From assembly GCA_026706455.1 (NCBI GenBank), contig JAPOYS010000148.1:55330-119329 (forward strand): a stretch of 64,000 nt of DNA, written 5' to 3'. Below the pieces are notes generated by a model. The model searched no databases. It was not told where the DNA came from and was given only the letters and a program-made list of their open reading frames with translations. The translations under genes were made by a program, and so were the position numbers. Below are positions 42,128 to 62,611 of the stretch, piece after piece. Numbering within the stretch: position 1 is the stretch's first letter; every line of letters begins with the position of its first letter. Origin of the DNA: Chloroflexota bacterium (GTDB lineage Bacteria; Chloroflexota; Anaerolineae; Aggregatilineales; Phototrophicaceae).

Positions 42128-44131
42128 TTGTCGGCTCGGCTCAACCAGGCGAGGATGCGATTGAGAATACGCGCAAGTCTAGGTAAGCGCCGGCGCGATT
42201 TGGCGAGTCTGCTTCTGGTCGTCTTGCTGGCGGCTGCTCTGCGCTTGGGGCGAAGCGATGTCGTCGAGTACTTTCATGATGACGCGATGCTGGCTACCCT
42301 GGCGCTGGAACTGGCTGATGGACAGCGCTTCCCGCTGACCGGCATTCTGTCCTCGACCGGCATCCCCAATTCGCCGGTAAGCGTATATTTCCTGGCGCTT
42401 CCTTTCGCCCTGTTTTCAGATCCGGCTGTCGTAATTCATTTTGTCATGATCTGGAATGCGCTCGGCGTCGCCCTCTTGTGGCTGCTGGCGCGCTGGCACT
42501 GCGGTTGGCGCATAGCGCTATTCGCGGGCCTCGCTTATGCCGTCAATCCCTGGGCTGTCTTATTCAGCCGCAAAATCTGGGCGCAGGAGCTGCATACGCC
42601 TATCATCATCCTGGGTCTGCTGCTATTGCTCAAGGGCTTCTGGGAGTTGCGTGACAGCGGGCGGCGAGCGCGGTCCGTTGCTGTGTCGCAAAGCCTGGGC
42701 CTCCCGATCCTGCTATTTGGCCTCCAATTTCATTTCGCTGCCTGGCCCCTCGCCTTGCTGATTCCGGTCTCGTTCTGGCTGGGTCGGCGCCGGCTGCACA
42801 TTGGCGCTGTCCTCGCGGCAGTCGCGCTGTCAACGGCGGTCTGCGCGCCCTACGCCCTGGGCTTGGCGCAAACGCTCGAAAGCGATCCCGCACGGATTTC
42901 CGATGCTATGGCGCGGTCTGTCGGCAGCCGTCCGCAGTTCAGCAGCGCCTCCCTTAGCGCAACTCTGCGCCTCGCCGCCGGCGCTGGATTAGAATACTGG
43001 CTCGCTCCCGACCAGGTCGCCGATATCACAGCCGGGTTCACGCCGCTGCTCCCGCTCGCCTTCGCCTTGATCCCCCTCATCGCGCTTGGCATAGGCGCGG
43101 CAATCGCGCAAATGCGCAGTTTTGCCTGGCTTATACTGATCTGGGCTTTTCTGCCGAGCCTGCTGCTGATAGTCGAATGGACGCCCGTCTACATTCACTA
43201 TTTCATCCCCTCAATCCCGGCGCTGGCGCTCTTGGTAGGCATCGGTCTCGATCGAGTTTTGCGGCTCGCTGCGCGCTCTTATGCCTTGCAGACCCTCGTA
43301 TGCCTGTCCTTCGCGCTTATCCTCGCCCTGCAGATCCAAGCATGGCATGCCGCTCTGGGCTATGTAGACAGGCGTCACGTGAATTATCCCGGCTTCACCA
43401 CGCCTTTGTCGAAGCTATTGCCCTTGCGCGACGCCCTGTCCGCCGTTGACGATGTGGTGGTGCTTGCGCCGGGCATGGCTTGGAACTTGCATCATGAGGT
43501 CGCGGTATGGGATACGCTATTGTGGGATTCAGCCAAATGCGCGCGCACGATAGTCCCGGCCGGCTACGCGGTATTTCCGAATCAGGCATTTGCCGCCCTC
43601 ATGGCCCCCGGCGCTCCACAGGGTCGTCTGACGGATCTGTATCGCAACGAGAGCGCAAAGTCTTTCCCAACAAGGGAAGGCGGCCGCGAATACACGCTAT
43701 ATCGGTGGAGCGCGGCGCCGGCTTGGCATGATTCATCCATTCACCCCATCGCGCCTCAGCGATTCGCCAATGGCATCCGCTTAACCGGCTATCGTTGGCA
43801 AGACGATCAGATCGCGCTCGAGTGGCTTCTGCCCGCGCGGCAGACCGGCGAAGATCTGCAGTACAGCGCGCAAGCGTACGCCGCCGATGGCACGCGCCTG
43901 GCGCAGCTTGACGCCCGCTTTTGGCACGGACGGCACTGGTGTGAAGGCGATCGCCTTCTGACCTTTGGTCCGTTGGTTCAGCAGGAATCCGCAAGATCCC
44001 TGACGATAGCGCTGTACAAGCTACGCAAGGGAAAAGAGGCGGAGGGCTACATCAATGTTGAGCTGTTGGATGAAATGGATAGGCCAACAAGGCAGAGCGT
44101 CGCGATTCGCATAGCGGCGGGAAACGGCTAA
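42128..44131 (+). CDS. GT-C/PMT-like polytopic membrane protein
   Basis: 667 aa; SDVVEYFHDDAMLATLALELADGQRFPLTGI...GIPNSPVSVYFLALPFALF; many TMs; start possibly 42155. Confidence 0.7.
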   Translation: MSARLNQARMRLRIRASLGKRRRDLASLLLVVLLAAALRLGRSDVVEYFHDDAMLATLALELADGQRFPLTGILSSTGIPNSPVSVYFLALPFALFSDPAVVIHFVMIWNALGVALLWLLARWHCGWRIALFAGLAYAVNPWAVLFSRKIWAQELHTPIIILGLLLLLKGFWELRDSGRRARSVAVSQSLGLPILLFGLQFHFAAWPLALLIPVSFWLGRRRLHIGAVLAAVALSTAVCAPYALGLAQTLESDPARISDAMARSVGSRPQFSSASLSATLRLAAGAGLEYWLAPDQVADITAGFTPLLPLAFALIPLIALGIGAAIAQMRSFAWLILIWAFLPSLLLIVEWTPVYIHYFIPSIPALALLVGIGLDRVLRLAARSYALQTLVCLSFALILALQIQAWHAALGYVDRRHVNYPGFTTPLSKLLPLRDALSAVDDVVVLAPGMAWNLHHEVAVWDTLLWDSAKCARTIVPAGYAVFPNQAFAALMAPGAPQGRLTDLYRNESAKSFPTREGGREYTLYRWSAAPAWHDSSIHPIAPQRFANGIRLTGYRWQDDQIALEWLLPARQTGEDLQYSAQAYAADGTRLAQLDARFWHGRHWCEGDRLLTFGPLVQQESARSLTIALYKLRKGKEAEGYINVELLDEMDRPTRQSVAIRIAAGNG

Positions 44132-46665
44132 GGCGCCGTCTCAGTCGCCTCAATTGCGTCGATTTCGTTCGCTTCCTGCGTACTCTGCGGAGCGGATGTT
44201 CCGTTCTCGATCCCTGCATCGTCCGGGGGAGTTGTCGCCGTTAATTCGAGCACTTCGTCCGCAATATCCCAGGGAACCACAAAGGTATCGTGGACCATCT
44301 CCGCATCGACGCCATCTTCCTCAAGGACTGTCACGTACCCCAGTCTCGGGTAGGCAAAGCCGTCGTGAATATAAAGCCCGACGGAGAGGCTGTAGTCAAG
44401 CATATTGACTTCATCGGAAAAGCGGTGAAATGTGGTGAAGGATTCGCCCCAGCGCCAATACTTGGTGGGCAAGCGCGGGGTCTGATCGTCTTGCGCGAAG
44501 ATGTCCCCATCCGCATCCAGCAGATGAGCGAAAACGGTGTAGTTGTCTTCGGGCGTTGATTCCGCCTTCCAGCTCAGCGAAACTTCGTTGAGGTCTAGGT
44601 CGAGCTTAAACGACTCGAGACGGATCGCGTCGGCGAAGACGGGCTGGGCGTCAACCGGAATCTCGGTGTAGCCGGCGGGGCTGGGCTGGGACCTAGCTGT
44701 GACAACGGCGCCAATTGGCAAGAGGACTGGATCAATATTCTGGCCCTCGACGTTGGTAGCGGCTATTGTTGTCGAGCGCATATCGCTTTTCCACTCGACC
44801 AGCAGATCAAATGGATAGCGCCCATAAGCGGCGCCGCTGATGTTGATCAAGTACTCGTCGGGATAAATCAGGTCGGCTTGCCAGCGCGACGTCCGCAAGC
44901 TGCCGGCGCCCGGAAAAGTGGCGTAGCGGCCAATTTCATGACCATGATCGTCGACCAAGGTGAGGAATATGCTATTGTCGCCCGTTGACTGCTTGAGCAC
45001 TTGCCAATAGAGCGTGACTCTTACGCGGTCGCCGGCCGCGTATCGCCGATCGCTGCGTTCGTACGCAACCAGCGCGACACCACCAAACTCAGCATATACG
45101 GGCCGCGCCATAGCGGGCACAGCCTCGACGGGCTGCGGCGCGCTGTACTGGCTGGCGATTACCGTAAAAGGCGCAAAGAGCGCGACTAGGCCCAGCAAGC
45201 GCAATTGCCAGACCATGGCGTCATGCAATAGCTCCTTGGGAACGGCATCGCCCGCCCGCACGAACTCCAAGTTTGGCGGGCGCAAGGAAAATGCTATCCA
45301 CCAGACGACTTCGACGAAGCCAACCGCGAGCAAGGGGCTGACGACGCCGATCAACGGGAAGAGCACTCGGCCCTCAGCCGCGCGCGTCAATGTGCTCCAG
45401 TAAAGGACGCCCAGCCACAAGAGCAGCAGGGCGAAGGCTAACGTAAGCAGATGCGCCAGCTCGTAGCGGGCGTAGGCGAAGTCGCTGATCGCCAGCAATT
45501 GCAGGCACAGGAATACGCAGCCGACCATACTTAGGAAGGTCATCAGGTCCAGCAATAGGTAAAAGATGCTCGCCACCTGAATATTGAGCGCGCCGAAGAG
45601 CCCCCAATATGACATGCGAAACTGTTGATATTCCGAAAACAAGTCGGCTAGGCTGAATGTAATCCCGCGGGGACCCGCGATATTTGCCATGGTGAATAGG
45701 CCGAAGGGCTCGCCGTAGAGTTGAACGTTGCGGAAATACCACCAGCCGGCAATCAACAGCCAGAACAGCGTTAGCGCGTACAGAAAGATCGCCAGACCGC
45801 GTCGATCCTGCGACTTGCGAAAAGCCAGCAACGCCACCAGCAGGATGACTGGGAGCAGCACCAAGCCCGTCAGCTTTGTGAGACTGGTCAACGCGAATAG
45901 CAGCGCGAGCGACAAGCTGCGACGAAGCGAAAAGCCGCCTCTGAGCGTACGCAGCATGACCAGGATCAGGGCGCTGTTCAAGGTCATCGCCAGGCTGTCG
46001 TTGTTGACGGAGGCGCTGACGAAAATGAACATGGGGTTGAGCCCGGTGATGGCGGCGGCAACGAAGGCGACGGTGGAACGCTGCGGCGACACGATCTCGC
46101 CGATCTTGTAGACGAGAACAATCGTTGCGGCGCCGAAAGCGAGACCAAGAAGCCGCATGGACGTGGCGGCCAGACCGGCGCCGGCAAATTGCGACAGCGA
46201 ATCGTCCGGCAGAACGAGGTTCTTGTTGCCGAAGGCGCCCGGCTGCCCCGCGCTCACATGCGGGTTGAGAAGGCGATAGAAGTCCGAATCGTCGATGTTA
46301 AAGGGCGCGGAGGCCAGCGCCATTACAGCGTAGTAGAGCGGCGGTTGGCTGCCATGCTGGCGGAAGATGGCGTCGGAGCCGTCAAACTCTTGCTTCGGCA
46401 AGCTGCCGGTCTTGCGCAAATGCTCCACATAGCCGAAATGCCAAAGCTCGTCATTGGCTTCAAATACTGGCGTCGCAACGACATACATCAGGCCGAAGAC
46501 GGCATAAAACAAAAGCGCCCATTGCAGCAGGCTCAGCGGAATGTCGACCGAATTCAACCATCGCCAGCCCTTGCGCAGCCTCTGGCCCAGCCAGTCTAGG
46601 TTGCGCGTCAAGCGATTAACCAGGCGTCGCACCTTCGGTTTCAGCCGGGCGAGTCTTGCTTGCAT
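44128..46665 (-). CDS. GT-C/PMT-like polytopic membrane protein with C-terminal extracytoplasmic beta-rich domains
   Basis: 845 aa; TPVFEANDELWHFGYVEHLRKTGSLPKQEF...GSQPPLYYAVMALA; C-terminal soluble region after the last TM. Confidence 0.7.
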   Translation of the reverse strand: MQARLARLKPKVRRLVNRLTRNLDWLGQRLRKGWRWLNSVDIPLSLLQWALLFYAVFGLMYVVATPVFEANDELWHFGYVEHLRKTGSLPKQEFDGSDAIFRQHGSQPPLYYAVMALASAPFNIDDSDFYRLLNPHVSAGQPGAFGNKNLVLPDDSLSQFAGAGLAATSMRLLGLAFGAATIVLVYKIGEIVSPQRSTVAFVAAAITGLNPMFIFVSASVNNDSLAMTLNSALILVMLRTLRGGFSLRRSLSLALLFALTSLTKLTGLVLLPVILLVALLAFRKSQDRRGLAIFLYALTLFWLLIAGWWYFRNVQLYGEPFGLFTMANIAGPRGITFSLADLFSEYQQFRMSYWGLFGALNIQVASIFYLLLDLMTFLSMVGCVFLCLQLLAISDFAYARYELAHLLTLAFALLLLWLGVLYWSTLTRAAEGRVLFPLIGVVSPLLAVGFVEVVWWIAFSLRPPNLEFVRAGDAVPKELLHDAMVWQLRLLGLVALFAPFTVIASQYSAPQPVEAVPAMARPVYAEFGGVALVAYERSDRRYAAGDRVRVTLYWQVLKQSTGDNSIFLTLVDDHGHEIGRYATFPGAGSLRTSRWQADLIYPDEYLINISGAAYGRYPFDLLVEWKSDMRSTTIAATNVEGQNIDPVLLPIGAVVTARSQPSPAGYTEIPVDAQPVFADAIRLESFKLDLDLNEVSLSWKAESTPEDNYTVFAHLLDADGDIFAQDDQTPRLPTKYWRWGESFTTFHRFSDEVNMLDYSLSVGLYIHDGFAYPRLGYVTVLEEDGVDAEMVHDTFVVPWDIADEVLELTATTPPDDAGIENGTSAPQSTQEANEIDAIEATETAP

Positions 46666-46798
46666 GTTCGCGCGTCACCGTCTTTGGAACTTTGCCAGGC
46701 GGAAGTGTGGTTCATAACAGACAGTATAATGCCAATCCATTGACCGCAACATAATTTGGGCATTGGTCGCGCTGGCGCAACTGGAATCCGGCATAGCG

Positions 46799-49198
46799 TC
46801 ATTCGACCGTTAGCGTGACGGGCAGAACCCCGATGTCGCCATCCCCAGCAACATCAGCGCCGCGTACCGGCAGTCTGGCAATTGTGCCGTTGTCGCTATC
46901 GTACAGGTACATAAGCACCCAAATCCGGTAATCGCCCGGCGCGATGTCCTCTGGCAAGCGAAGCGCGCGATTATCCCAGATTGGCCAGCGCGGCTTCCAG
47001 GACGAGCTCGGCGCGAAGCCGTCTTGCGGTCCCGAGTCCCGCCCTTGAATGGCCGGAAAGTCGCCGCGGCTTTGAACGATGAACCAGGCAATCGTATAAT
47101 CTTGCTCGAGTTCCCTGTCCGTTTGCCAGAGCAAGGACAGTTCGATTGCTTCGCCCGCGCTGTAGCGGGTTCCATTGGGCAAGACGAAACTTGACAGATA
47201 TATGTATTCGCCGTAGCGCAAACTAGTGGCAGCGTCGCCGGCATATTGACCGAGGGGACTGGGCGCCGGGCTGCGCGTGCTGTATTCCAAAAGCCGGACC
47301 GTCGGATCAGCTTCTGCCAGCTGGATCTCGCGCAGTGGATAGTAATGTTGCGCTAGATAGCGCTCCACGGGTCGGAAACTCCAGCGCATGAAGGGGCTGG
47401 TATTCACTAATACCCACAAGCGGTCGAGGCCGCTTGCGAGACGCTGCAGGGATCGGAAGCTCTGTACATCAAACCAGTCGTTAGGATTATTGGAAATGAT
47501 CGCGGCCCGCTGCTTGTCGCTGGCTGCTTGCGCCAGCGGTCGGTCCAGTATGATCGGGCGCGGTCTGCTGGCATCCATGTGGTTAAGCATAAAATCGCTG
47601 TAATCGCCGTCGGGTATCAGAAGCACGTCCTCAGGCTCGGCGTTCCGCGCGACAAAGTCGAGCGCTTGGTGCAGCGCTCGCTGACTCGAACGCGTAAGCG
47701 GATCCTTGTCGTACGCCGCCGACAAGTTTAGCAGAATGAGCGGAAGGCTGAGCGCGGCCAGCAAGGGCGAAAGATGGCGCCAGCGGGAGTCGGGATCGCG
47801 CAGATACAGGCGCAGAGCGGCCGCCGTTAGCGCGAGGTAGACGGCGAAACTCAGTGACCAAGTCGGCAGTTGGGCGCGCGCCCACAGAAATTCAAAGCCC
47901 AAATCGAGCCAGCGCTGCGGCAAAACCACCCAGCGGAAGTAACGCGGCTGGGTCAATGCTGCCGGCCACTCCGAGAGACCGTTGGCCTCCGGCGGCAAGG
48001 ACTCGCTGTATCGACTTAAGCTCAGAGAGGCGCCCGCAAATTGGATCCAGATGCCGTAAAAGACTAACGCGACCCAGACCAAGCGCAAGCGTCGCCGGCG
48101 TCGATGGAGCATCGCCTGCGCGACCGGCGCCGTCGCCAGCATGAGGATCGGTATGCAGGGAAGCAAGAAACGCGGGGGCCAGCTAAGCCCGCCAAACCAG
48201 TGCGCGCCGGTCAGCAAGGCGTGCCCCGCTGTATAACCAGCGATTAGCAGCGCGGCGGACAGGACAAGCCTCATGCGCCCGGCTCGCCAGAGCATGACCG
48301 CGCCGGGTATAGCCAGGAGCAGCAGCGGCGATGTCGCCCAAATGCTGGCGCCCGGGCTCAAAAGGTAGGCGCGTAGGGCGAGGCCGAGGGTTTCCGTCTC
48401 GAAGCCCAACCGAGCCGCCAGCTCCTCCAGCTCCGCTGAGAGTGGATCGAAGAGCATCGGAATTAGCAAAAGCAGCAGCAGCGCCAGCAATGCCAGGGCG
48501 GCGGCGCCTGTGGCGCGACGGTTGCCCGGGCGCGGGGGCGGCAGCGCGAAGACGAGGACTGCCGGCAAGGCGAAGGCAGCCGAGAATTTGGTCGCGTAAG
48601 CGAGCAGCATCGCCACTGCCGCCGCCGCCAGGCTTATGGCGCGAACCCTCGCGTGCTGGCCATGTCCCAGTTGCAGGGCAAAAAAAGCCGCAAGAATGAA
48701 CAGCGCCGTCAAGGGCTCGCGAAAAAAGGTCTGGCTGTAAGCCCAAAGATTCGTGCTTGCGCCCGCGCTGATCGCGACGCCGACCGCGACCGCATCCCGG
48801 TAGGACATGGAGCGCAGGGTCAGATAAACCAAGCCCGCTATCAGAGAGGTGATAATGATGTTGAAAAGCCAGACAGTGTGAATATTGCCCAGACGCGGCA
48901 GGGCTTGCGCCAATCGAAGCAAAGGATCAGCTAGCAAAATATGGAGGCGCTCGTCGACCTGGTATTCGCCCAGCGGCAGAGGGTTTGACTCGCGTATGAG
49001 GAAGGGGAGCTTGATCCAACTCGTTTCATCCATCAGCCAATCGCCGTAGCGGACCTGGCTGGTGACGGCGTCGAGCGCGCGCCGCGTATCGCCCGATTGG
49101 ATCGCGCCGCGGTACGTCAGCATGTAGACGCCAACGCAGAACGAGACGATGAGGAGAAAAACTCGGCAGCGATGAATGTGATCGGCGGAGCGGGTCAT
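46799..49198 (-). CDS. GT-C-like polytopic membrane protein
   Basis: 799 aa, about 10+ TMs in the N-terminal two thirds, C-terminal soluble domain; same general architecture as its neighbours. Confidence 0.65.
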   Translation of the reverse strand: MTRSADHIHRCRVFLLIVSFCVGVYMLTYRGAIQSGDTRRALDAVTSQVRYGDWLMDETSWIKLPFLIRESNPLPLGEYQVDERLHILLADPLLRLAQALPRLGNIHTVWLFNIIITSLIAGLVYLTLRSMSYRDAVAVGVAISAGASTNLWAYSQTFFREPLTALFILAAFFALQLGHGQHARVRAISLAAAAVAMLLAYATKFSAAFALPAVLVFALPPPRPGNRRATGAAALALLALLLLLLIPMLFDPLSAELEELAARLGFETETLGLALRAYLLSPGASIWATSPLLLLAIPGAVMLWRAGRMRLVLSAALLIAGYTAGHALLTGAHWFGGLSWPPRFLLPCIPILMLATAPVAQAMLHRRRRRLRLVWVALVFYGIWIQFAGASLSLSRYSESLPPEANGLSEWPAALTQPRYFRWVVLPQRWLDLGFEFLWARAQLPTWSLSFAVYLALTAAALRLYLRDPDSRWRHLSPLLAALSLPLILLNLSAAYDKDPLTRSSQRALHQALDFVARNAEPEDVLLIPDGDYSDFMLNHMDASRPRPIILDRPLAQAASDKQRAAIISNNPNDWFDVQSFRSLQRLASGLDRLWVLVNTSPFMRWSFRPVERYLAQHYYPLREIQLAEADPTVRLLEYSTRSPAPSPLGQYAGDAATSLRYGEYIYLSSFVLPNGTRYSAGEAIELSLLWQTDRELEQDYTIAWFIVQSRGDFPAIQGRDSGPQDGFAPSSSWKPRWPIWDNRALRLPEDIAPGDYRIWVLMYLYDSDNGTIARLPVRGADVAGDGDIGVLPVTLTVE

Positions 49199-51047: not shown

Positions 51048-53534
51048 TCAGTCCGGCAGCTTGGTGTCTTCGTCGTATTTCGACATGAATTCAAGCGCCT
51101 CAGCCTTCATCGCGTCGGTCAATCTAAAGTTCTGACTGAAGTAGACCGATTCGGGAAAGCGATAATTCCAGGCGCGATAGAAATCGGCTCGTCGGATATC
51201 CCGGCTGAGATTGCAATCGAAGCGAACCAGGTAGCCGTTGGCGAGCGGTCCCTCATGACTGTGCTGAACATGCGCCAAGCCCCAGGTGATCCCGACGCCG
51301 TCTCCGCTGTCGCTGAAGGCGTCGGGCACATAAGGTCCGGCGGCTACCGGCGGCGCGGTGACCTTGCCGACGACTTCAAAGTTCAAGCCATCGGCGGCGA
51401 ACTGCACCGTGTTCTTTTCCGGTCCTTCATGGCTAGTGACAGCGACGATGCCTTCGCGATAAGGATAGAGGAAGGTCTCGTGCCCGCTATTGGTCAGCGG
51501 ATTCAGGGGCGACTTGACGAAGGGCCCGCGCGGATTGTCGGCGATGGCGACGCCCCAGCCGACGCCCAGATCGTGGCGGTAGGTACGTCCGAATCGCACA
51601 CCCTTGTAATATAAGCAAATCTGCCCCCGGTACATCAAGACGTAGGGATCGTGCAGCTTGTGCGAGTCCCAGTCGCCGAAGCTGTCCACCGCGTCGGCGT
51701 CATCGGCCTCGCCGACGAAGTTCCCCCGCCGCCCCGGTCGCAGTACCGGCTCGCCAAGTTTCGTCCACGGTCCCTCCGGCGAGTCGGCCCAAGCCAGGCC
51801 GATCTGGTGAATTGAGCGACGTTTCCATACCCCGCTGATTACTTGATAATAGAGATAATATTTGCCGTCATGAATCAAGATATCGGGCGTAAAAACTGAC
51901 CGATCGTCGAATGCTCCCCTATCTCCGCGCAGCACAGCTGGTCCGCGCTCTTCCCAGCTGAAGCCGTCCTGTGAGGCGGCGAACCATATATCAGCCATAT
52001 CCCAATCCCAGGCGGGCCGCCTTTCGCTGGCGCAAGCTATGCCCAGCCATCGTTGCGCTGTTTGCCGCCGCGTATACCACACGTAGTATGTGCCGCCGAC
52101 TTTGATGACTTTGGATGGATCGCGCCGCGTGACCTCCGGCTGCTTGCCGATCCCGCCGACGCGCGAATACTTGAATGCGCTGAAGAATTCGCTGCCCTGG
52201 TCCTTGTAGACGCCGAAATTTTCGTACACGCGCTCCATCGCCGCGCTGACGGGACCGCTGGGCCGGTCTTCGTCGGGTCTTTCCGGCTCATTGGCATAGA
52301 TCAGCGGCTGCATATTGCGCTCGTTCAGCGCCAGGTCGGGCGAAAAATAGACCGCTTCCGGATAGCGGATATTGGTTTCGCGATATCCGGGCCGCTCTAC
52401 ATTGCGCCGCAGGTTGCAGTCGAAGCGCACAATGTAAGAGTTTCCGCTTTTCATCTCTTCCGTGGCGATATGCGCCAAGCCCCAGCCTATGCCCGCGCCG
52501 TCTTTCGCATCGCAATAAGAATCGGGCGCGAAGGGTCCGGCGGCCAGCGGCGGAAGAGACACATGGGCGACCACATCAAAATTCAACCCGTCGCTCGCGT
52601 ATTGAATCGTATCTTTCTCCGGCCCGTCGTGCCCGCAAATAGCGAGCAGGCCCGCGCCATAGGGGAAGAGGCAAGTCTCGTGCCCGCTGTTGGTGATTGG
52701 ATTAAGCGGCGACTTGACAAAGGGACCCTCGGGCTTGTCAGCGATGGCCAGGCCCCAGCCGATGCCACGCGAATACTTGGTCGTCCAGCCCATCGGCTGC
52801 CCCTTGTAATAGAGCCAATACTTGCCGTCTCGGACGAGGATGAAAGGGTCGTGCGCTTTATGACTGTCCCAGTCGCCATAGCGCGCCACTTCGTCGGAGT
52901 CGTCATCGCCGAGCCATTCGCCGGGCGCCCCCGGGCGCAGCACCGGCGCTTCGGCCCGCCGCCAGGGACCATCGGGCGATGCGGCAAATGACAGGCCGAT
53001 GGAATTGCGCGTGCGGCTGCGATAGGGGTAATCGACCGCTTGATAGTACAGGTAGAATCCGTCCCGGGTGATCAAGACATCCGGCGTAAATACCGATCGC
53101 CCGTCGTAAGCCTCGCGCGGACCTCGTGTGACGGCGACGCCGCGCTCCCGCCAATGGAAACCGTCTTCAGAGGTCGCGTACCAGATTTCGGCCAAATCCC
53201 AATCGAAGACGGGCGTGCTCCATGTCTGTTCCCGCTGAGGCGGCTTGTTGCTATGGTCGCGGTCATGCAGCGTCTCACGCCGCGTGTACCACACATAGTA
53301 GAGGCCGTTAATCCGCAAGACTGTGGTCGGGTCGCGCCGCGTGACGCCCGCTTCCGCCCCAATTCCAGTGATCCGACTGTACTTGAATGTGGTGTAAAAC
53401 TCGTTGGTCGAATCCTGGTAGAGTCCCCATTTGTCGTAGAGACGCGCGTGGGCGGCGCTGAGCGGGCGATTCGTCGGCTTGCGCGCGCTCGGCTCGCCCG
53501 GCAGGCGCGCTGTATCGTTCGTCGCGCCTTTCAC
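51048..53534 (-). CDS. Tandem-duplicated GH117-like (five-bladed propeller) glycoside hydrolase
   Basis: 828 aa with two homologous halves. Each has an SxAxxR motif (LSAAHARLYD; VSAAMERVYE), RRDP[TS][TK]V followed by YYVWYTRR, a WDSHK.HDP motif and TNSGHET.L[FY]PY. Confidence 0.85.
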   Translation of the reverse strand: MKGATNDTARLPGEPSARKPTNRPLSAAHARLYDKWGLYQDSTNEFYTTFKYSRITGIGAEAGVTRRDPTTVLRINGLYYVWYTRRETLHDRDHSNKPPQREQTWSTPVFDWDLAEIWYATSEDGFHWRERGVAVTRGPREAYDGRSVFTPDVLITRDGFYLYYQAVDYPYRSRTRNSIGLSFAASPDGPWRRAEAPVLRPGAPGEWLGDDDSDEVARYGDWDSHKAHDPFILVRDGKYWLYYKGQPMGWTTKYSRGIGWGLAIADKPEGPFVKSPLNPITNSGHETCLFPYGAGLLAICGHDGPEKDTIQYASDGLNFDVVAHVSLPPLAAGPFAPDSYCDAKDGAGIGWGLAHIATEEMKSGNSYIVRFDCNLRRNVERPGYRETNIRYPEAVYFSPDLALNERNMQPLIYANEPERPDEDRPSGPVSAAMERVYENFGVYKDQGSEFFSAFKYSRVGGIGKQPEVTRRDPSKVIKVGGTYYVWYTRRQTAQRWLGIACASERRPAWDWDMADIWFAASQDGFSWEERGPAVLRGDRGAFDDRSVFTPDILIHDGKYYLYYQVISGVWKRRSIHQIGLAWADSPEGPWTKLGEPVLRPGRRGNFVGEADDADAVDSFGDWDSHKLHDPYVLMYRGQICLYYKGVRFGRTYRHDLGVGWGVAIADNPRGPFVKSPLNPLTNSGHETFLYPYREGIVAVTSHEGPEKNTVQFAADGLNFEVVGKVTAPPVAAGPYVPDAFSDSGDGVGITWGLAHVQHSHEGPLANGYLVRFDCNLSRDIRRADFYRAWNYRFPESVYFSQNFRLTDAMKAEALEFMSKYDEDTKLPD

Positions 53535-53537
53535 GAT

Positions 53538-55112
53538 TCACCTGTCTTCCGCGATCATTGCGGCCGCTTTCTCGCCGATCATGATGCAGGGGGCATTGGT
53601 ATTGGCGTTGATGATACGCGGCATGATCGAGGCGTCGGCGACGCGCAAGCCCTCGAGGCCGCGCACGCGCAGCCGCTCATCGACTACCGCCATCGCGTCG
53701 CGCCCCATTTTGCAGCTGCCGGCCGGATGATAAATCGTGGTTGCGAATTCACGGATGTAGTGGATCAGCTCGGCGTCGCTTTTGACTTCTTCGCCGGGCA
53801 GGAACTCGGGTCCGCGATAGGCTTCGAAGGGCGGCGCCAGCGCGATCTCCCGGCCGAGCTTCAACCCAGCGATCAGCACCTGCACATCAGCCTCTTCGTT
53901 CAGGCAGCCGAAGTCGATATGCGGCGGCTGGAGCGGGTCGCTCGACAGCAACTTCAGTTCGCCGACGCTTGTCGTGCCGACCAGGCCGACCAGTACGGTA
54001 AATCCGTGACCCGCGGGTGTCTCGAATCCATGCCGAATGAACCAATCCGGACCGAAGTGATATTGCAGTTCAGGCGCCGGCGAGTCGGGGTCAAGACGGA
54101 CGAAGCCGCCCGCTTCGCCGAGATTCGATGTCAGAGGGCCCATTCGTTCGTCGTGATAGCGCTTTACTTGCTCCGGCGCGTCCTTGTCGGCCAAGCTGAG
54201 TGGCTTGGCGCAGTGATAGGCGAGGGGGACTTGCATATGATCCATCAGGTTTTGGCCTACGCCGGGCAAGTCCAATATCGTGGGGATGCCGAATTCGGCA
54301 AGCTGATCGGCCGGACCCAAGCCTGAGAGCAAGAGCAGTTGCGGCGAGTTGATAGCGCCGCCGCAGACGATAACTTCCTCGGTCGCGCGCGCGGATTTGA
54401 GCGAGCCCTCATGCCAGTATTGGAGGCCACGGCAGCGCGTTCGCTCGAAATCCAGCCGGACAACCTGCGCAAAAGGAAGCGCAGTGAAGTTGCTCCGTCT
54501 TAGCGCCGGGTGGAGATACCCGACGGCCGCGCTGTGCCGCTGGCCGCGCTTCTGGGTGACTTGGTAGATGCCGAATCCTTCTTGTTGGCCATCGTTGAAA
54601 TCGGCTTTATGCGCATAGCCCAATGTCAGCGCCGCCTCGACGAAGGCCCGGCTGAGTGGATTCGGATCCTGCGGATCGGCGACATTGATGGGGCCGCCGA
54701 CGCCGTGATGCGCCGATTCGCCGCGCTCCTGGTGCTGCATCTTGCGGAAGAAAGGCAGCAGGTCTTCGTAAGCCCAGCCGTCGTTTCCGAGCGCCGCCCA
54801 GCCGTCATAATCCGATGGATGACCGCGCTGGTAAACCATGGCGTTCATGGAGCTGGTGCCGCCGAAGACTTTGCCGCGCGGCACATATTCGCGCCGATTG
54901 TTGAGCCCGGGCTGCGGCGCCGTTTGGTAATCCCAGTCTATTTCCGTGTGGAAAAGTTGGGAGAAGCGCGCCGGAATCTGGATGTCCTTGTCACTGTCGG
55001 GACCGCCGGCTTCCAGCAGCAGCACCGTACAGGTCTCGTCTTCGCTGAGTCGGCTCGCCAGCGCGCAGCCGGCTGAGCCCGCGCCAATGACAATGTAATC
55101 CGCAGCGATCAT
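53538..55112 (-). CDS. GMC family FAD-dependent oxidoreductase (choline dehydrogenase-like)
   Basis: DYIVIGAGSAGCALASRLSEDETCTVLLLEAGG; GGTSSMNAMVYQRGHPSDYDGW; GGAINSPQLLLLSGLGP; C-terminal YHPAGSCKMG. Confidence 0.95.
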   Translation of the reverse strand: MIAADYIVIGAGSAGCALASRLSEDETCTVLLLEAGGPDSDKDIQIPARFSQLFHTEIDWDYQTAPQPGLNNRREYVPRGKVFGGTSSMNAMVYQRGHPSDYDGWAALGNDGWAYEDLLPFFRKMQHQERGESAHHGVGGPINVADPQDPNPLSRAFVEAALTLGYAHKADFNDGQQEGFGIYQVTQKRGQRHSAAVGYLHPALRRSNFTALPFAQVVRLDFERTRCRGLQYWHEGSLKSARATEEVIVCGGAINSPQLLLLSGLGPADQLAEFGIPTILDLPGVGQNLMDHMQVPLAYHCAKPLSLADKDAPEQVKRYHDERMGPLTSNLGEAGGFVRLDPDSPAPELQYHFGPDWFIRHGFETPAGHGFTVLVGLVGTTSVGELKLLSSDPLQPPHIDFGCLNEEADVQVLIAGLKLGREIALAPPFEAYRGPEFLPGEEVKSDAELIHYIREFATTIYHPAGSCKMGRDAMAVVDERLRVRGLEGLRVADASIMPRIINANTNAPCIMIGEKAAAMIAEDR

Positions 55113-55176
55113 GAACCGCTCCCGCTATCGACGCCAATTCAAACTGCCGGAAGGCGGATTTGAAATGCGCATGTCA

Positions 55177-55188
55177 ATTGTCTACAAT
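55177..55188. promoter_or_regulatory. Palindrome ATTGTCTACAAT, candidate GntR-family operator (site 1)
   Basis: Perfect inverted arms (extends to AATTGT..ACAATT) in the 151-bp divergent gap between the GMC oxidoreductase and GH117-like genes; matches two sites at 61359 and 62650. Confidence 0.65.
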
Positions 55189-55263
55189 TCAGCCATTATA
55201 CCGACCAAATCCGCGCGTCACAATTTCTGCGCATCGGATTCCGCGAACTATTTAGGAGGAACC

Positions 55264-56499
55264 ATGAGCGAAGACAGACAGACATCCGGCGCATTTCCTG
55301 GGCGGCTGCCGCTGGAGAAGCCAACAGATCGGCCGCTGAGCGCCGCCATGCACCGGCTCTACGATATGTGGACGCCGCGGCAGGATGCGGGCAACCCCTT
55401 CTACACCGTCTTCAAGTATTCTCGCGTGACGGGCATCGGCCTGGATGAATCCGAATTGTCAGTCTCGCGGCGCGACCCATCCAAGGTGCTCAAAATCGGT
55501 GACACCTATTATGTCTGGTATACGCGCAGAGCGACAGAGCGGATGCCAGTCGGGCGCTTCAATATCGACCAGGGCGATGATGAGACGCCGGTAGTCGATT
55601 GGGATCTGGCCGATATCTTTTACGCGACTTCTAAAAATGGCTTCCATTGGGAAGAGCAGGGCCTTGCCGTTCCACGCGCGCCCAAAGGAAACTACGGCGA
55701 TCGCTCGCTGTCGACGCCCGATATTCTGGTCTACGGCGGGCGCTATTATCTCTACTATCAGTGCTTCACGACGATGTGGCGCCAGAACGACTGCGTCAAT
55801 GTCAGCATGGCGTATTCGGATTCGCCCGACGGTCCCTGGACCCGGCTTGAGCGCCCAGTGGTTCATCAGGGCGCCGACGGCGACTGGGACAGTTGCGCCA
55901 TTCACGATCCGTATCCGCTGGTGTACAAGGGAAAGATCTGGGTCTACTACAAAGCCTCGCCGGTGGACAAAGCGCCGGGCAATCTCCGGCTCGCGCAAGG
56001 CGTCGCCATCGCCGAGCATCCCGAAGGACCCTACATCAAGTCGGCGCTTAATCCGGTGACGAACTCGGGTCATGAGACCATGCTCTGGCCCTACGAGGAC
56101 GGCATTGCCGCGCTACTGATCCAGGACGGGCCCGAAAAGGACACGATTCAATTCGCGCCGGACGGACTCAATTTCGAGCCCAAGGCGCACGTACAGATGT
56201 CGCCGCACGCGCCGGGTCCGTTTTGCCCGGACGCCTTCGCCGACAATGGCGATGGGCGCGGCATCACCTGGGGACTCAGCCACATCATCCCGCAGACGCC
56301 AAATACGAACAAGGGCTTGTACATTGTTCGCTTCGACTGCGCCCTGTCGCGCGATGCCGAGCGCCCCGATTTCAAGGGCAGCAACCTGCACTGGCATGAG
56401 GCATCCTGGTTCCAGCCAATCGTCCGCCTGTCCGACGAGTGGCGGGCGCGCATCATCGCGGAGCAAGCCAATTTCGACCGCCCGACTATCGGCACCTAA
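55264..56499 (+). CDS. GH117-like glycoside hydrolase (single-domain copy)
   Basis: Start at ATG 55264 after a GGAGGA RBS. LSAAMHRLYDMW (SxAxxR), SRRDPSKVLKIGDTYYVWYTRR, WDSCAIHDPY, TNSGHETMLWPY; homologous to both halves of 51048-53534. Confidence 0.87.
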   Translation: MSEDRQTSGAFPGRLPLEKPTDRPLSAAMHRLYDMWTPRQDAGNPFYTVFKYSRVTGIGLDESELSVSRRDPSKVLKIGDTYYVWYTRRATERMPVGRFNIDQGDDETPVVDWDLADIFYATSKNGFHWEEQGLAVPRAPKGNYGDRSLSTPDILVYGGRYYLYYQCFTTMWRQNDCVNVSMAYSDSPDGPWTRLERPVVHQGADGDWDSCAIHDPYPLVYKGKIWVYYKASPVDKAPGNLRLAQGVAIAEHPEGPYIKSALNPVTNSGHETMLWPYEDGIAALLIQDGPEKDTIQFAPDGLNFEPKAHVQMSPHAPGPFCPDAFADNGDGRGITWGLSHIIPQTPNTNKGLYIVRFDCALSRDAERPDFKGSNLHWHEASWFQPIVRLSDEWRARIIAEQANFDRPTIGT

Positions 56500-56519: not shown

Positions 56520-57290
56520 TCAGCGTCCCATCCAGCCGCCGTCGACGACCAGGATTTCGCCGTTGACGAAGTCGGAGGCGGCCGAAGCCAGGAAGACCGC
56601 CGGTCCTTTGAAATCATCGGGGTGGCCCCAGCGCCCGGCTGGTATGCGCTCGAGGATGGAGCGGTAGCGCTGCGGGTCGTTCTGCAGCGCTTCGGTGACA
56701 TCCGTGCGCACGTAGCCCGGCGCGATGGCGTTGACTTGCACGCCGCGTCCCGCCCATTCATTGGCGAGCGCCTTGGTCAATTGACCCAAGCCGCCCTTGC
56801 TCGCCGCGTAACCGGGCACGGTGATGCCGCCTTGAAAAGTCAACAGCGAGGCGGTGAAGATGATTTTGCCGCGGCCGCGCGCGAGCATTGGCGCGCCCAG
56901 TTCGCGACTGAGGATGAACTGCGCGTTGAGATTGGTCTCGATGATCCGGTCCCAATATTCATCAGGATGGCTCTCGGCTGGTTCGCGCAGCACTGTGCCG
57001 GCGTTGTTGATCAGAATATCGATGACTGGATGACGCGCCTTCACCTCGCTGATGAATCGGTACAGGCCCGAACGATCGGAGAAGTCACAGCGATAGCCAG
57101 TGAAGGAGCGCCCGAGCGCCCTGACCTCAGTCTCGATGGCGCTGCCCGCAGCCTCCAGGTTGGCGCTCACGGCGATGATGTCGGCGCCGGCTTCAGCTAA
57201 GCCAAGCGCCATCGCCTTGCCGATGCCGCGGCGCGCGCCGGTGACGAGCGCCGTCTTGCCGTCCAGCCTGAATAATTCCGAAACTTTCAT
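56520..57290 (-). CDS. kduD: SDR family oxidoreductase, KduD-like (2-dehydro-3-deoxy-D-gluconate 5-dehydrogenase)
   Basis: LDGKTALVTGARRGIGKAMALGLAEAGADI...ASLLTFQGGITVPGYAASKGGLGQLTKALANEWAGRGVQVNAIAPGYVRTDVTEAL...RIPAGRWGHPDDFKGPAVFLASAASDFVNGEILVVDGGWMGR; the C-terminal half closely follows KduD as recalled. Confidence 0.85.
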   Translation of the reverse strand: MKVSELFRLDGKTALVTGARRGIGKAMALGLAEAGADIIAVSANLEAAGSAIETEVRALGRSFTGYRCDFSDRSGLYRFISEVKARHPVIDILINNAGTVLREPAESHPDEYWDRIIETNLNAQFILSRELGAPMLARGRGKIIFTASLLTFQGGITVPGYAASKGGLGQLTKALANEWAGRGVQVNAIAPGYVRTDVTEALQNDPQRYRSILERIPAGRWGHPDDFKGPAVFLASAASDFVNGEILVVDGGWMGR

Positions 57291-58307
57291 CTAGATCTCC
57301 AGCAGAATCTTCATCACTTTGCCGCCTTTTTCCATATCTTCAAAGCCGGAAGGCAGCGCGCTCAAGGGCCGAACATCGGTGATCAGCTCATCCAGGGGCA
57401 GATCGCCGGCGGCCGCCAAGTCGATGGCGTCGGCGAAATCCTGCGGCTCGTAGACGCGCACGCCCTGCAAGCGCAGCTCGCGCCAGAAAAACCGGAACAG
57501 GTCAACCTCCGGCTTGCGGGCGAAGATGGCAACGATCACCGCCAGCCCGCGCGTACGCAGCAATTCCGTCATGACGGCGGCGCCCGCCTGGGAACCCGAC
57601 ACTTCGAATACAATGTCGGCGCCCGCTCCCCGCGTCCGTTGCATGACCAGCTGGATCAGATCGGCCTCACTAGGATTTACCGCCTCGAAACCAAGATCTT
57701 GGGCTAGCTCGACGCGATAGGGGTTGATCTCGGAGACGATGACGTCGGCGCCGGCTTGCCGCGCCACCAAAGCCACCAGAATGCCAATCGGTCCGCCGCC
57801 CAATACAACCACCTTGTCGCCGGGCTGAACCTCAGCCAGTCGCACATCATGACAGGCGACAGCCAGGGGTTCAATCAAGGCGCCGTGCTTAAGCGACAGG
57901 TTTGCTGGCACACGATGCAAGGTATAGGCTGGCACGGTCCAATAGCTTTGAAACGCGCCGGGCGTATCAATGCCAAGGAAGTTCAGGTTGTGGCAGATAT
58001 GATTGTGCCCGGCGGCGCAGGCCGGGCATTCGTTGCAGGGCGCCAGCGGCAAGACAACAACATGATCGCCAATTTCAAAGTCCTCGACGCCGGCGCCAAG
58101 CTCGTGTATCGTGGCTGACATTTCATGCCCCATGACCAAAGGCATTTGCACGCGCGCGTCCATGGCGCCGTGGTAGATGTGCAGATCAGTGCCGCAGATG
58201 CCGCAATGCGACACCTTCAGCTGCGCCTCGCCAGGGGCGGGGTCGACCGCATCGCCGGCGCCCAATCGAATCCTTCGGTCGCCTTCGTAATAGGCTGCTT
58301 GTGCCAT
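57291..58307 (-). CDS. Zinc-dependent alcohol/sugar dehydrogenase (MDR superfamily)
   Basis: HCGICGTDLHIYHG...GHEMSATIHELG...CNECPACAAGHNHICHNLNFLGID; Rossmann VVVLGGGPIGILVALVARQAGA. Confidence 0.93.
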   Translation of the reverse strand: MAQAAYYEGDRRIRLGAGDAVDPAPGEAQLKVSHCGICGTDLHIYHGAMDARVQMPLVMGHEMSATIHELGAGVEDFEIGDHVVVLPLAPCNECPACAAGHNHICHNLNFLGIDTPGAFQSYWTVPAYTLHRVPANLSLKHGALIEPLAVACHDVRLAEVQPGDKVVVLGGGPIGILVALVARQAGADVIVSEINPYRVELAQDLGFEAVNPSEADLIQLVMQRTRGAGADIVFEVSGSQAGAAVMTELLRTRGLAVIVAIFARKPEVDLFRFFWRELRLQGVRVYEPQDFADAIDLAAAGDLPLDELITDVRPLSALPSGFEDMEKGGKVMKILLEI

Positions 58308-58414: not shown

Positions 58415-59062
58415 TTACTGAATATTAGTCGACAGGGCTTCTATCGCCGCGCGTTTGTCATCAGCGCGGATCGCGTCCAGGATCCGTTTGTGCTCGCGGT
58501 AGCTCTCCATGATGTCGTCCAGGCGATTGTATTGCATCATCATGCGCATGGCTATTGGCTGCCACAAGGTGAATAGATCCTTGTCATCATGGCTTTGGAT
58601 GATCGCCTGATGGAAGCGCAGATCGTGGTCGGTCAGCGATTTCAGATCGTTCGCCACGCAGGCCGCCTTGATCTCGCGCAGGATCTCGTCCCAGACTTCG
58701 ATGTCATCGTCGGTGACGCGCTCGAAAATACTGTTGAGGACGAATACCTCGATCGTCCGCCTCAATTGCACGACGAGCGGACGCACCTCGTCGCTTGGGT
58801 TCTCGGCCACGCGGACGCCCTTATTCGGCTCCAGCACCAGCAAGCCTTGCTGCGTCAATTGACGAAAAGCCTCGCGAACGGGACCGCGACTGACGCCGAA
58901 ACGTTTCGAGAGGTCAACCTCGCGCAGCGGGTCGCCCGGCTTCAGTTGGCGGGCGAGGATGTCCTGCCGCAAACGGGCGGCGATCTGCTCCGGCAGCGTG
59001 CGAAAAATCTCAAATTCCGGCATCGTCACAAATCCGTCCCGCTTTTCGTCGCCCTCGCGCAA
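58415..59062 (-). CDS. GntR family transcriptional regulator (FCD/FadR-type)
   Basis: LPEQIAARLRQDILARQLKPGDPLREVDLSKRFGVSRGPVREAFRQLTQQGLLVLEPNKGVRV (wHTH) plus FCD-like all-helical C-terminus. Confidence 0.93.
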   Translation of the reverse strand: MREGDEKRDGFVTMPEFEIFRTLPEQIAARLRQDILARQLKPGDPLREVDLSKRFGVSRGPVREAFRQLTQQGLLVLEPNKGVRVAENPSDEVRPLVVQLRRTIEVFVLNSIFERVTDDDIEVWDEILREIKAACVANDLKSLTDHDLRFHQAIIQSHDDKDLFTLWQPIAMRMMMQYNRLDDIMESYREHKRILDAIRADDKRAAIEALSTNIQ

Positions 59063-59118: not shown

Positions 59119-60264
59119 TTACTGCTTGTATGGATCGGCCGCGTCGCGCAAACCATCGCCCAAGAAGTTGAAGGCGAGCACCGTGACGATTACAAATAGA
59201 CCGGGAATGAGCAGCCAGGGGCTTTGACTGAGGCTGCGGATATTCTGGGCATCCTGGAGCAGCACGCCCCAGCTGACCGCCGGCGGGCGGATGCCAATTT
59301 GCAGGAAGCTCAAGGCCGTCTCCGCCAAGATCATGCCGGGCACCGACAGGCTGAGCACAACAATCAAAAAGCTGGCGAAGGATGGCAGCAGATGCTTGAC
59401 GATGATGTTCATATCGCCCATGTTGGAAATACGCGCCGCCATGACGAAGTCGGCCTCGCGCAATTCAAGCAGCTTGCCGCGAACGGCGCGCGCCAACTGC
59501 GGCCAATTCACAACCGCCAGGACGATCGTAAAGCCGAAGTAGACTTGGACGGAACTCCATTCCGGCGGGAAAGCAGCAGCCAGCGCCATCATCAAGGGAA
59601 TCTGCGGGATCGAAACCAGAAACTCGATGACGCGCTGCACAACGATGTCAACCGAGCCGCCGAAGTAACCAGAAATCCCGCCAAACAGGCAACCGAGACA
59701 GAAGCTGCTGACCATGCCCAGAAAGCCGATCGATAATGAAATGCGCGACGCGTGCATCGTGCGCGAGAACAAATCGCGCCCCAGTTCATCGCTGCCAAAC
59801 GGGAAGAAGACTGCCGGCTCATCCACGCCAACCAGGTGAATATCGGTCTCGATCAGTCCCAGCAGCTTATACGGCAAGCCGCGGACAAAGAAACGCAGCG
59901 GATAACGGCGCGACGTATCATCTGTATAGTTGCGTTTCAGCGTATCCATATCCAGCTCTTGCGTCATGTCGTAGATGAAGGGCTGCAAATGAAAATTGCC
60001 TTCGGCGTCAAGGAATCGAATCGTGTTCGGCGGCGCTTTCGCATATTTGACGTGACGCTTGTGATGATCGTTGACCGAGTAGAATTCAGGAAAGATCGCC
60101 ATCGAATAGAGAAAGATAATGACCAGCGCCGAGACCATCGCCAGCCGGTGACGGCGAAACTTGCGCCAAATCAACTGCCATTGCGACGCCAGGTAATAGC
60201 TCTCGTCATACTGGACGGCTTGTTTCACGGGGCTAAACCGGCGGCTAGCCAGGCGGCGCAGCAT
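59119..60264 (-). CDS. ABC transporter permease (OppC/DppC type)
   Basis: FGSDELGRDLFSRTMHASRISLSIGFLGMVSSFCLGCLFGGISGYFGG; EAA-like loop LREADFVMAARISNMGDMNIIVKHLLP. Confidence 0.94.
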   Translation of the reverse strand: MLRRLASRRFSPVKQAVQYDESYYLASQWQLIWRKFRRHRLAMVSALVIIFLYSMAIFPEFYSVNDHHKRHVKYAKAPPNTIRFLDAEGNFHLQPFIYDMTQELDMDTLKRNYTDDTSRRYPLRFFVRGLPYKLLGLIETDIHLVGVDEPAVFFPFGSDELGRDLFSRTMHASRISLSIGFLGMVSSFCLGCLFGGISGYFGGSVDIVVQRVIEFLVSIPQIPLMMALAAAFPPEWSSVQVYFGFTIVLAVVNWPQLARAVRGKLLELREADFVMAARISNMGDMNIIVKHLLPSFASFLIVVLSLSVPGMILAETALSFLQIGIRPPAVSWGVLLQDAQNIRSLSQSPWLLIPGLFVIVTVLAFNFLGDGLRDAADPYKQ

Positions 60265-60276
60265 ATCGCTTCCTCG

Positions 60277-61272
60277 TCAATTGGCTGTGCGTTCCATGCG
60301 AATGCGCGGATCGACCACCACCAGCAAGATGTCGGACACGGTCGTGCCGATGACGGTCAGTATCGTTACGAACATCAGCAGGGTAGCGCTAAGGAATGTG
60401 TCTTGGGTGATCAGCGCCCGCACCATCATCGGCCCCGCTGTTGGCAGCCCCAATACCCAAGCCGTGATGGTGCCGCTCGAAATCAGCGCCGGGAAGAGCC
60501 AAGCCAAGCCGCTGACGATAGGATTTAGCGCGACCCGCACCGGGTACTTGAAGAGCAGCTTCACTTCCCCCACGCCCTTGCTGCGCGCCGTTATCACATA
60601 TTGCTTGTTGAGTTCATCGAGCAGCGTGCCGCGCAGCACGCGAATCATCCCGGCAGTGCCGGCCGTGCCCACTACAATAATTGGTATCGGCAAATGGAGC
60701 ATCAGATCGCCGATCTTTGCCAAGTTCCAGGGCGCATCGAGATACTCGGGCGAAAACAGACCCGTGAGGTTGAGCCCGTATGATTTCCAGGCGATGTACA
60801 GCATGATGAGCGCCAGCATAAAATTAGGTATCGCCAAGCCGATGAAACCGACGAATGACACAATATAATCGACGAGCGAATACTGATGCGTCGCCGAATA
60901 GATGCCGATCGGAATGGCCACGGCGAAGGTGAAGACCGCGCTCAGGATCGCGATGGTGAATGTCAGCGCCAGCCGCTCGCCGATGATATCGCGCACGGGC
61001 TGCTGCCAGTCAAATGAAAAACCGAATTCCCCGCGCAATACTTGCCCGAACCATCTGAAATAGCGCAAGGTAGTCGGAAGGTCCAATCCGTATTGAGCGC
61101 GCAGCCTGTCGACTTCCTCGTCGCTCAGGTCTTGGCCCGCCTGCTCAAGCCGGCTGATGTAGGTGGAGAGATAATCGCCGGGCGGCAGCTCAATGATGAC
61201 AAATGTGACTATTGAGACCAGCCACAAAAGGAAGACCATATATACGAGACGCTGAAATACGTAACTCTTCAT
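60277..61272 (-). CDS. ABC transporter permease (OppB/DppB type)
   Basis: RLVYMVFLLWLVSIVTFVIIELPPGDYLSTYI...MIRVLRGTLLDELNKQYVITARSKGVGEVKLLFKYPVRVALNPIVS. Confidence 0.94.
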   Translation of the reverse strand: MKSYVFQRLVYMVFLLWLVSIVTFVIIELPPGDYLSTYISRLEQAGQDLSDEEVDRLRAQYGLDLPTTLRYFRWFGQVLRGEFGFSFDWQQPVRDIIGERLALTFTIAILSAVFTFAVAIPIGIYSATHQYSLVDYIVSFVGFIGLAIPNFMLALIMLYIAWKSYGLNLTGLFSPEYLDAPWNLAKIGDLMLHLPIPIIVVGTAGTAGMIRVLRGTLLDELNKQYVITARSKGVGEVKLLFKYPVRVALNPIVSGLAWLFPALISSGTITAWVLGLPTAGPMMVRALITQDTFLSATLLMFVTILTVIGTTVSDILLVVVDPRIRMERTAN

Positions 61273-61522: not shown

Positions 61523-62611
61523 GTGATAATCAAGGACCTTAGGACCCACCATTATCGCTTGCCTTTGACTCATCCCATGACGGATGCGTCTCATGGCGCC
61601 ATGACTCACTTTGAAGTGGTCCTGGTCCAGCTGCGCTCCGATTGCGGTTTGGCGGGAATTGGTTACACCTACACCATCGGCAGTGGCGGCGCGGCCATTC
61701 GTTCGCTCATTGCTTGTGATATGGCGTCGATGCTGCTGGGCGCCGATGCCAATCGCATTGAAGAGATTTGGGAGCGGATGTGGCGGCGCCTGCACTACAT
61801 TGGTCGGGGCGGATTGGTCGCCTTCGCCATGTCGGCGGTAGATATCGCTATGTGGGATCTGAAAGGGCAGCGCGAGAACCAGCCCTTGTGGAAATTGCTC
61901 GGCGGCCATTCGAGCCAGGCGCGCGCATACGCCGGCGGCATCGACTTGCAGCTGGGTCCCGACGAGTTGGTCGAGCAGACGCGCGACAACTTGCGGAAGG
62001 GCTTCCGCGCCATCAAGATCAAAGTTGGGCGCGACAAACTCTCGGAAGATGTCGCTCGCCTGCGCGCCGTGCGCGACTGTGTGGGACCCGATATGCCGCT
62101 GATGGTCGACGCCAATATGCGTTACACGGTCGAGCAAGCCATAAGGGCGGCGCGCAGTTTTCGCGACTACGACGTCTACTGGTTCGAAGAGCCAACGATT
62201 CCCGATGACTACAAAGGCATGGCGCGCATCGCGATCGAGGGAGGGCTGCCAATTGCGGCCGGCGAGAACCTGCATACGATCTATGAGTTTCGCCACACGA
62301 TCGAAGACGCCAAGATCGCCTTTCCCGAGCCTGACGTATCCAATATCGGCGGCATAACCAACTGGATGCGCGTGGCAAAACTGGCTTACGCGCACAATCT
62401 GCCAGTCACATCGCACGGCGTGCACGAACTGCATCTGCATTTGCTGGCTGCGGTTCCCAACGCCTCGCTGCTGGAGGTGCACAGCTTTGGCCTGGAACGC
62501 TTCATCACGAATCCGCCGAAGCTCAAGAATGGGATCATGCAAGCGCCGAACGCGCCCGGGCACGGCGTTCAATTCGATTGGGAGCGCCTGAGCGAGTTCG
62601 AGATAAAGTAG
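61523..62611 (+). CDS. Enolase-superfamily protein, mandelate racemase subgroup (sugar-acid dehydratase/cycloisomerase-like)
   Basis: AIKIKVG (KxK), LMVDANMRY, YWFEEP, IAAGENLH, PDVSNIGGITNW and TSHG are MR-subgroup catalytic motifs. Confidence 0.92.
   Translation: MIIKDLRTHHYRLPLTHPMTDASHGAMTHFEVVLVQLRSDCGLAGIGYTYTIGSGGAAIRSLIACDMASMLLGADANRIEEIWERMWRRLHYIGRGGLVAFAMSAVDIAMWDLKGQRENQPLWKLLGGHSSQARAYAGGIDLQLGPDELVEQTRDNLRKGFRAIKIKVGRDKLSEDVARLRAVRDCVGPDMPLMVDANMRYTVEQAIRAARSFRDYDVYWFEEPTIPDDYKGMARIAIEGGLPIAAGENLHTIYEFRHTIEDAKIAFPEPDVSNIGGITNWMRVAKLAYAHNLPVTSHGVHELHLHLLAAVPNASLLEVHSFGLERFITNPPKLKNGIMQAPNAPGHGVQFDWERLSEFEIK

Follow-up and report, generated by a model that had tools for sequence, protein, structure and literature searches.

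The window analysed here, a stretch of 64,000 nucleotides from a Chloroflexota bacterium, contains a long open reading frame that seems to hold a GH117-like hydrolase twice over, and the question is whether such a chain is a genuine GH117 enzyme and whether it carries its own dimer partner with it. Published GH117 structures indicate that the full active site needs an intact dimer. The anhydro-L-galactosidases PpGH117 (formerly BpGH117; 4ak5, 4ak6, 4ak7), BuGH117B (5ta7) and Zg4663/AhgA (3p2n), which show about 40-43% identity to the matched half, share with both halves the five-bladed propeller, the SxAxxR motif and the catalytic Asp, Asp, Lys and His-Glu residues, but they are single-domain homodimers, whereas here two domains lie in one chain. 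In a natural single-chain GH117 the halves can be mutated one by one, making the partner contacts and the unusual His/Asp dyad directly testable. Reading of the frame and comparison of its halves gave the following layout:

51048 to 53534, minus strand: tandem GH117 gene, 828 aa, GTG start
52278 to 53534, minus strand: N-half, residues 1-419, GH117 domain 1 and linker
51048 to 52277, minus strand: C-half, residues 420-828, GH117 domain 2, and the stop codon
53442 to 53459, minus strand: SxAxxR motif of the N-half (SAAHAR, residues 26-31), helix 27-36 in the AlphaFold2 model
52230 to 52247, minus strand: SxAxxR motif of the C-half (SAAMER, residues 430-435), helix 431-440 in the AlphaFold2 model

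The 828-residue frame runs through 51048-53534 on the minus strand without an internal stop, while the plus-strand frame over the same interval is interrupted by stops, and the GC content by codon position is coding-like and similar in both halves. The original prediction of a single polypeptide with two homologous halves is borne out, as the halves are 52% identical over 394 residues (E 9e-151). At the DNA level the identity is only about 66%, so the duplication must be old. The further paired motifs (N-half / C-half) are RRDPTTVLRINGLYYVWYTRR / RRDPSKVIKVGGTYYVWYTRR, WDSHKAHDP / WDSHKLHDP and TNSGHETCLFPY / TNSGHETFLYPY, and every motif quoted in the prediction is found in each half. The domains are joined by a linker of roughly 20 residues (near 404-426), no signal peptide is visible by eye, and the gene begins 3 bases 3' of the stop codon of a GMC oxidoreductase gene (see below) in an operon-like arrangement. 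Separate adjacent GH117 gene pairs are present in the same locus, which could point to an artefact where two neighbouring genes were joined by misassembly or by loss of a stop codon. However, about 30 genomes, each assembled on its own, have the same single open frame at 75-83% identity, which rules this explanation out for any practical purpose.

It is clear from the genome samples that the tandem is a stable feature of a Chloroflexota group. In genus g1, to which the window belongs, it is intact in 30 of 34 genomes and split over two contigs in G391; G415 lacks the tandem, and G262 and G396 gave no GH117 match at all. Across the family sample (98 genomes, 24 genera) just one further tandem was seen, that of genus g8 (G212, on the same contig as locus L036), and in the class sample of 396 genomes tandems are confined to g1 and g8. 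Other Chloroflexota with the tandem are UBA3499, UBA3001 and the fragment L046. A search of viral sequences returned no copies, and the plasmid matches (8 records, below 60% identity) cover stretches of about 1.0-1.2 kb, the size of a single domain. According to the record names many genomes of the tandem-bearing group come from sponge metagenomes. The UBA3499 tandem (L031, 156-2774) shows a Cys-rich, zinc-ribbon-like stretch (CRCGF...CGRCG) in its linker, and SxSxxR instead of SxAxxR in its first domain.

The assignment of each half to GH117 is supported by sequence matches in the PDB as well as by fold matches. For both halves all GH117 structures scored E <= 1e-79, compared with 4e-5 or weaker for GH43, and with an AlphaFold2 model of the tandem (pTM 0.89, pLDDT 86.8, built with 34 tandem sequences) the top 18 Foldseek matches in the PDB were all GH117, giving a five-bladed beta-propeller of the GH117 type with Zg3615 (4u6d) as the best match (TM 0.92 by target length). 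The Pfam search, where no GH117 model was among the matches of the tandem, named GH43 from a partial match (about 100 of 288 positions), and the Pfam and NCBIfam labels (GH43, arabinanase) generally rest on partial or sub-threshold matches. Since both the PDB and the Foldseek comparisons prefer GH117, a GH43 identity is ruled out, and the better fit to GH43 that would have spoken against the prediction did not occur. By every sequence and fold feature testable here, then, the tandem protein is to be classified as a GH117 member, and it departs from the one domain per chain of the known GH117 homodimers by having two domains in one open reading frame.

For PpGH117 it has been established that Asp90 is the base and the His302/Asp320 dyad the acid, that Glu303, Asp245 and Glu167 are also required, and that Lys260 assists (PMC11574756). 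Alignment to this enzyme placed the corresponding residues as follows:

53331 to 53333, minus strand: Asp68, N-half, predicted general base (PpGH117 Asp90)
52677 to 52682, minus strand: His285-Glu286, N-half (PpGH117 His302-Glu303)
52626 to 52628, minus strand: Asp303, N-half (PpGH117 Asp320 of the His/Asp acid dyad)
52119 to 52121, minus strand: Asp472, C-half, predicted general base
51477 to 51482, minus strand: His685-Glu686, C-half
51426 to 51428, minus strand: Glu703, C-half, at the Asp320 position of the dyad

In the alignment the base Asp, Asp245, Lys260 and His302-Glu303 are all present in both halves; the alignments end short of the PpGH117 C-terminus and of its partner-chain His (H392) of the +1 subsite. 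When the catalytic columns were mapped in the PpGH117 order 90, 167, 245, 260, 302, 303, 320, the N-halves gave D D D K H E D in all 30 complete genus rows, in two UBA rows and in one L036 row, and the C-halves D D D K H E E in 31 of 31 genus rows and 3 of 3 UBA rows. Position 320 of the Chloroflexota tandem is accordingly Asp in all N-halves read and Glu in 34 of 35 C-halves, and as judged from these alignments the two halves are systematically non-equivalent at the acid dyad. Position 320 also varies among single-domain GH117 homologues (Asn, His and Ala, with Cys in the PAIR genes described below), so Asp320 is not family-defining and its change alone does not end membership. Unlike PpGH117, BuGH117B and Zg4663, both tandem halves furthermore carry Asp for the Glu167 of the agar-active clade A, as do the single-domain Zobellia paralogues Zg3615 (4u6d) and Zg3597 (4u6b), and the specificity may differ from that of clade A. 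The lineage-wide Asp to Glu change at the dyad amounts to a natural experiment.

The remaining C-half belongs to L036 (Anaerolineaceae; tandem at L036 5977-8292, frame open) and shows D D D R R A A, with His302 changed to Arg, Glu303 to Ala, Asp320 to Ala and Lys260 to Arg. In this one genome the half nevertheless retains 47 of 60 near-invariant family columns, with a high GC3 of 0.83, and such retention is what would be expected of a half that is kept as a partner. Taken together with the Glu in 34 of 35 C-halves and their slightly lower conservation (mean identity 0.77 among C-halves, 0.81 among N-halves), it could mean that the C-half acts chiefly in regulation or as a scaffold, a pseudo-enzyme, with catalysis left to the N-half alone. 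We consider this improbable, as the C-halves of genus g1 and the UBA genomes retain the base, His, Glu, Asp245 and Lys. A related and somewhat more attractive, though still tentative, possibility is that of an obligate intramolecular heterodimer whose halves share out the work, in which a retuned C-half (His/Glu dyad, dead scaffold in one lineage) would complete the N-half site in cis.

In GH117 the N-terminus of one chain lies close to the C-terminus of its partner (PMC11574756), so a short linker is enough for a head-to-tail fusion, and the linker of about 20 residues fits the dimer geometry. Our preferred reading, to which we assign a probability of about 0.6, is that of a covalent GH117 pseudo-dimer that takes 3,6-anhydro-L-galactose, or a closely related sugar, off the end of imported and perhaps sulfated oligosaccharides; both the contacts and the substrate are deduced. 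The halves would pack like the two chains of a GH117 homodimer, the chain bringing its own partner, with each SxAxxR segment bracing the opposite half and each C-terminal tail placed at the opposite half's active site. Asp68 and Asp472 would serve as bases and His285 and His685 as acids, the N-half using a His/Asp dyad and the C-half a His/Glu one. Support for the intramolecular dimer is indirect and comes from the high confidence of the two-domain model (pTM 0.89), the termini lying close together in published work, the retained degenerate half and two independent fusions (see below); the pTM value alone is no proof of a pseudo-dimer arrangement. The domains might instead be independent of each other, each pairing with a domain of another chain in a larger assembly. 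Some single-domain GH117s have been reported as octamers (PMC8152962) and each half has retained its own SxAxxR motif, but the shortness of the linker, the pTM reached by the isolated chain and the dead half kept in L036 all make such an assembly rather unlikely.

The substrate part of the covalent pseudo-dimer proposal follows from the genes beside the tandem, which in the window are:

53538 to 55112, minus strand: GMC oxidoreductase (choline dehydrogenase/alcohol oxidase type), adjoining the tandem both across the genus and in L036
55111 to 56499, plus strand: single-domain GH117, closest in the PDB to Zg3615 (4u6d)
56520 to 57290, minus strand: short-chain dehydrogenase (SDR), retained in the locus
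57291 to 58307, minus strand: zinc-type alcohol dehydrogenase (MDR), retained in the locus
58415 to 59062, minus strand: GntR/FCD regulator
59119 to 61272, minus strand: two ABC permease genes (59119-60264 and 60277-61272)
61523 to 62611, plus strand: enolase-superfamily protein

The single GH117 is 46-49% identical to the tandem halves and is the tandem's neighbour in nearly every genome of the genus. The usual order in the genus is tandem, GMC, single GH117, SDR, MDR, GntR, two permeases and cycloisomerase, followed by one or two solute-binding proteins, PAIRa and/or PAIRb and a sulfatase, which brings up to three further GH117 domains beside the tandem and five in total. The contig of the window ends at the window's right edge. 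Another contig of this genome, C162, has genes for a solute-binding protein, PAIRa (interrupted by a single in-frame TAG), PAIRb, a sulfatase and a pair of ABC ATPases, so the locus is most likely split over two contigs and C162 holds its missing right end. On C162 (L083, 4383-6588) the two adjacent GH117 genes both have Cys at the Asp320 position. The permeases would belong to an oligopeptide-type importer, as judged by their own sequence and by the presence of SBP_bac_5 and OppD/OppF-like genes in the locus. Three large hydrophobic, membrane-protein-like frames at 42128-49198 of the window (one on the plus and two on the minus strand) look by eye like GT39-type glycosyltransferases, and most loci of the genus have relatives of the third frame close to the tandem.

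The best functionally named PDB match of the enolase-superfamily protein is a 3,6-anhydro-alpha-L-galactonate cycloisomerase (5xd7, E 2e-119), the next named family members being at 2e-59 or weaker. Its very top match is 2ovl, which we take to be Streptomyces SCO3480. The latter has been shown biochemically to be a 3,6-anhydro-L-galactonate cycloisomerase (PMC9706016). A GH117 together with a 5xd7-type cycloisomerase is also found in the 3,6-anhydro-L-galactose loci of Vibrio EJY3, Streptomyces (SCO3480/SCO3486) and Zobellia (ZGAL_4657-4669), but genus g1 differs from these by its GMC enzyme, its five GH117 domains, its oligopeptide-type ABC importer and the absence of an aldehyde dehydrogenase from the locus. 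UBA3499 has an aldehyde dehydrogenase near the tandem with 6j75, presumably the Vibrio anhydrogalactose dehydrogenase, as its best PDB match (4e-161); the genome of the window holds no close relative of it (best 37%, on another contig). The GMC gene occupies the place that the aldehyde dehydrogenase has in related loci (UBA3499, Colwellia), and may be a candidate replacement for the anhydrogalactose dehydrogenase.

From these pathway genes (cycloisomerase, SDR, alcohol dehydrogenase, importer and sulfatase, with an aldehyde dehydrogenase also in UBA3499), and with no signal peptide seen by eye, we propose that the enzyme would act in the cytoplasm on oligosaccharides delivered by the ABC importer and would remove alpha-1,3-linked 3,6-anhydro-L-galactose, or a close relative, from their non-reducing end; once freed, the sugar would undergo oxidation, possibly by the GMC enzyme, before the cycloisomerase opens its ring. 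The five-domain locus suggests that this Chloroflexota genus, which by record names is apparently largely sponge-living, has a pathway devoted to anhydro-sugars. Sulfated oligosaccharides are hinted at by the sulfatase of the locus and by 31 sulfatase matches elsewhere or here in the genome. A genome search for endo-agarases, which covered the GH16 family, gave no convincing member, and this speaks against the cell breaking down agar on its own. The same architecture could serve another substrate, a sulfated or unmodified L-galactoside from, for instance, sponge or other marine sulfated glycans. Such a substrate would agree with the sulfatases, the lack of a convincing GH16, the Asp in place of Glu167 and the view that sponge Anaerolineae and Caldilineae use sulfated host glycans (PMC6306507). 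Set against it are the closeness of the cycloisomerase to characterised 3,6-anhydro-L-galactonate cycloisomerases and the structure of Zg3615, another GH117 having Asp at 167, which contains bound 3,6-anhydro-L-galactose (4u6d title), and we regard it as possible but somewhat unlikely.

A second GH117 tandem was found in three Planctomycetota/Verrucomicrobiota genomes (L038, L040 and L041); in a sample of 298 genomes from the class to which L038 belongs, L038's own was the single genome to have one. Like the Chloroflexota tandem it has two GH117 domains in one frame, both with an SxAxxR-type start and the catalytic His-Glu, but it differs in its export-type N-terminal leaders (by eye), in having Asp320 in both halves and in its independent origin. 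Its AlphaFold2 model is weaker (pTM 0.69, 12 sequences). In the trees the Chloroflexota halves form their own lineage beside the clade of PpGH117, BuGH117B and Zg4663, whereas the Planctomycetota/Verrucomicrobiota halves group with Zg3615, Zg3597 and the single gene at 55111-56499, and the branch dividing the two sides has full support (100/100). Forcing the N-halves of both tandems together cost 168 log-likelihood units (AU p = 2.7e-7), a comparison that was picked after the first tree had hinted at two origins. As a single origin is rejected by the AU test, at least two GH117 fusions must have taken place, suggesting that the tandem form is of benefit. The Chloroflexota C-halves as one clade gave a p-AU of 0.33, and T1 and T2 as one group had weak support (79/31).

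GH117 genes often lie side by side without being fused (L042-L045, L049, L065, and PAIRa/PAIRb of genus g1), and such neighbours would be a ready source for fusion. Long open frames suggested a third fusion, of PAIRa with PAIRb, but it was rejected since a stop codon follows PAIRa in every two-gene locus. Directly 3' of the Akkermansiaceae tandem lies a third, separate GH117 gene (L041, 8473-9678) with Ala at the Asp320 position.

While the GH117 family itself is known, the tandem architecture and the asymmetric dyad are new. The characterised GH117s that have been tabulated nearly all have subunits of 40-46 kDa, forming dimers or octamers where this is known (PMC8152962), and none in that table has the size of the tandem. 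Text searches of the literature found no tandem or two-domain GH117, characterised or otherwise, and GH117 in sponge Chloroflexota is not reported in the open papers found. Of the concern that the architecture might be both common and characterised already, the first part holds within one lineage, while for the second no characterisation was found, and the catalytic non-equivalence of the halves and the surrounding anhydro-sugar locus are additions to the original prediction. If the heterodimer reading is true, a GH117 homodimer would have become a single-chain asymmetric enzyme in the Chloroflexota, with the Planctomycetota/Verrucomicrobiota tandem arising independently. GH117 was also seen in a different kind of fusion, a Phycisphaerae frame (L050, 4748-7192) where a GH117 domain is joined to an alpha-L-fucosidase domain (GH29-type, PF01120).
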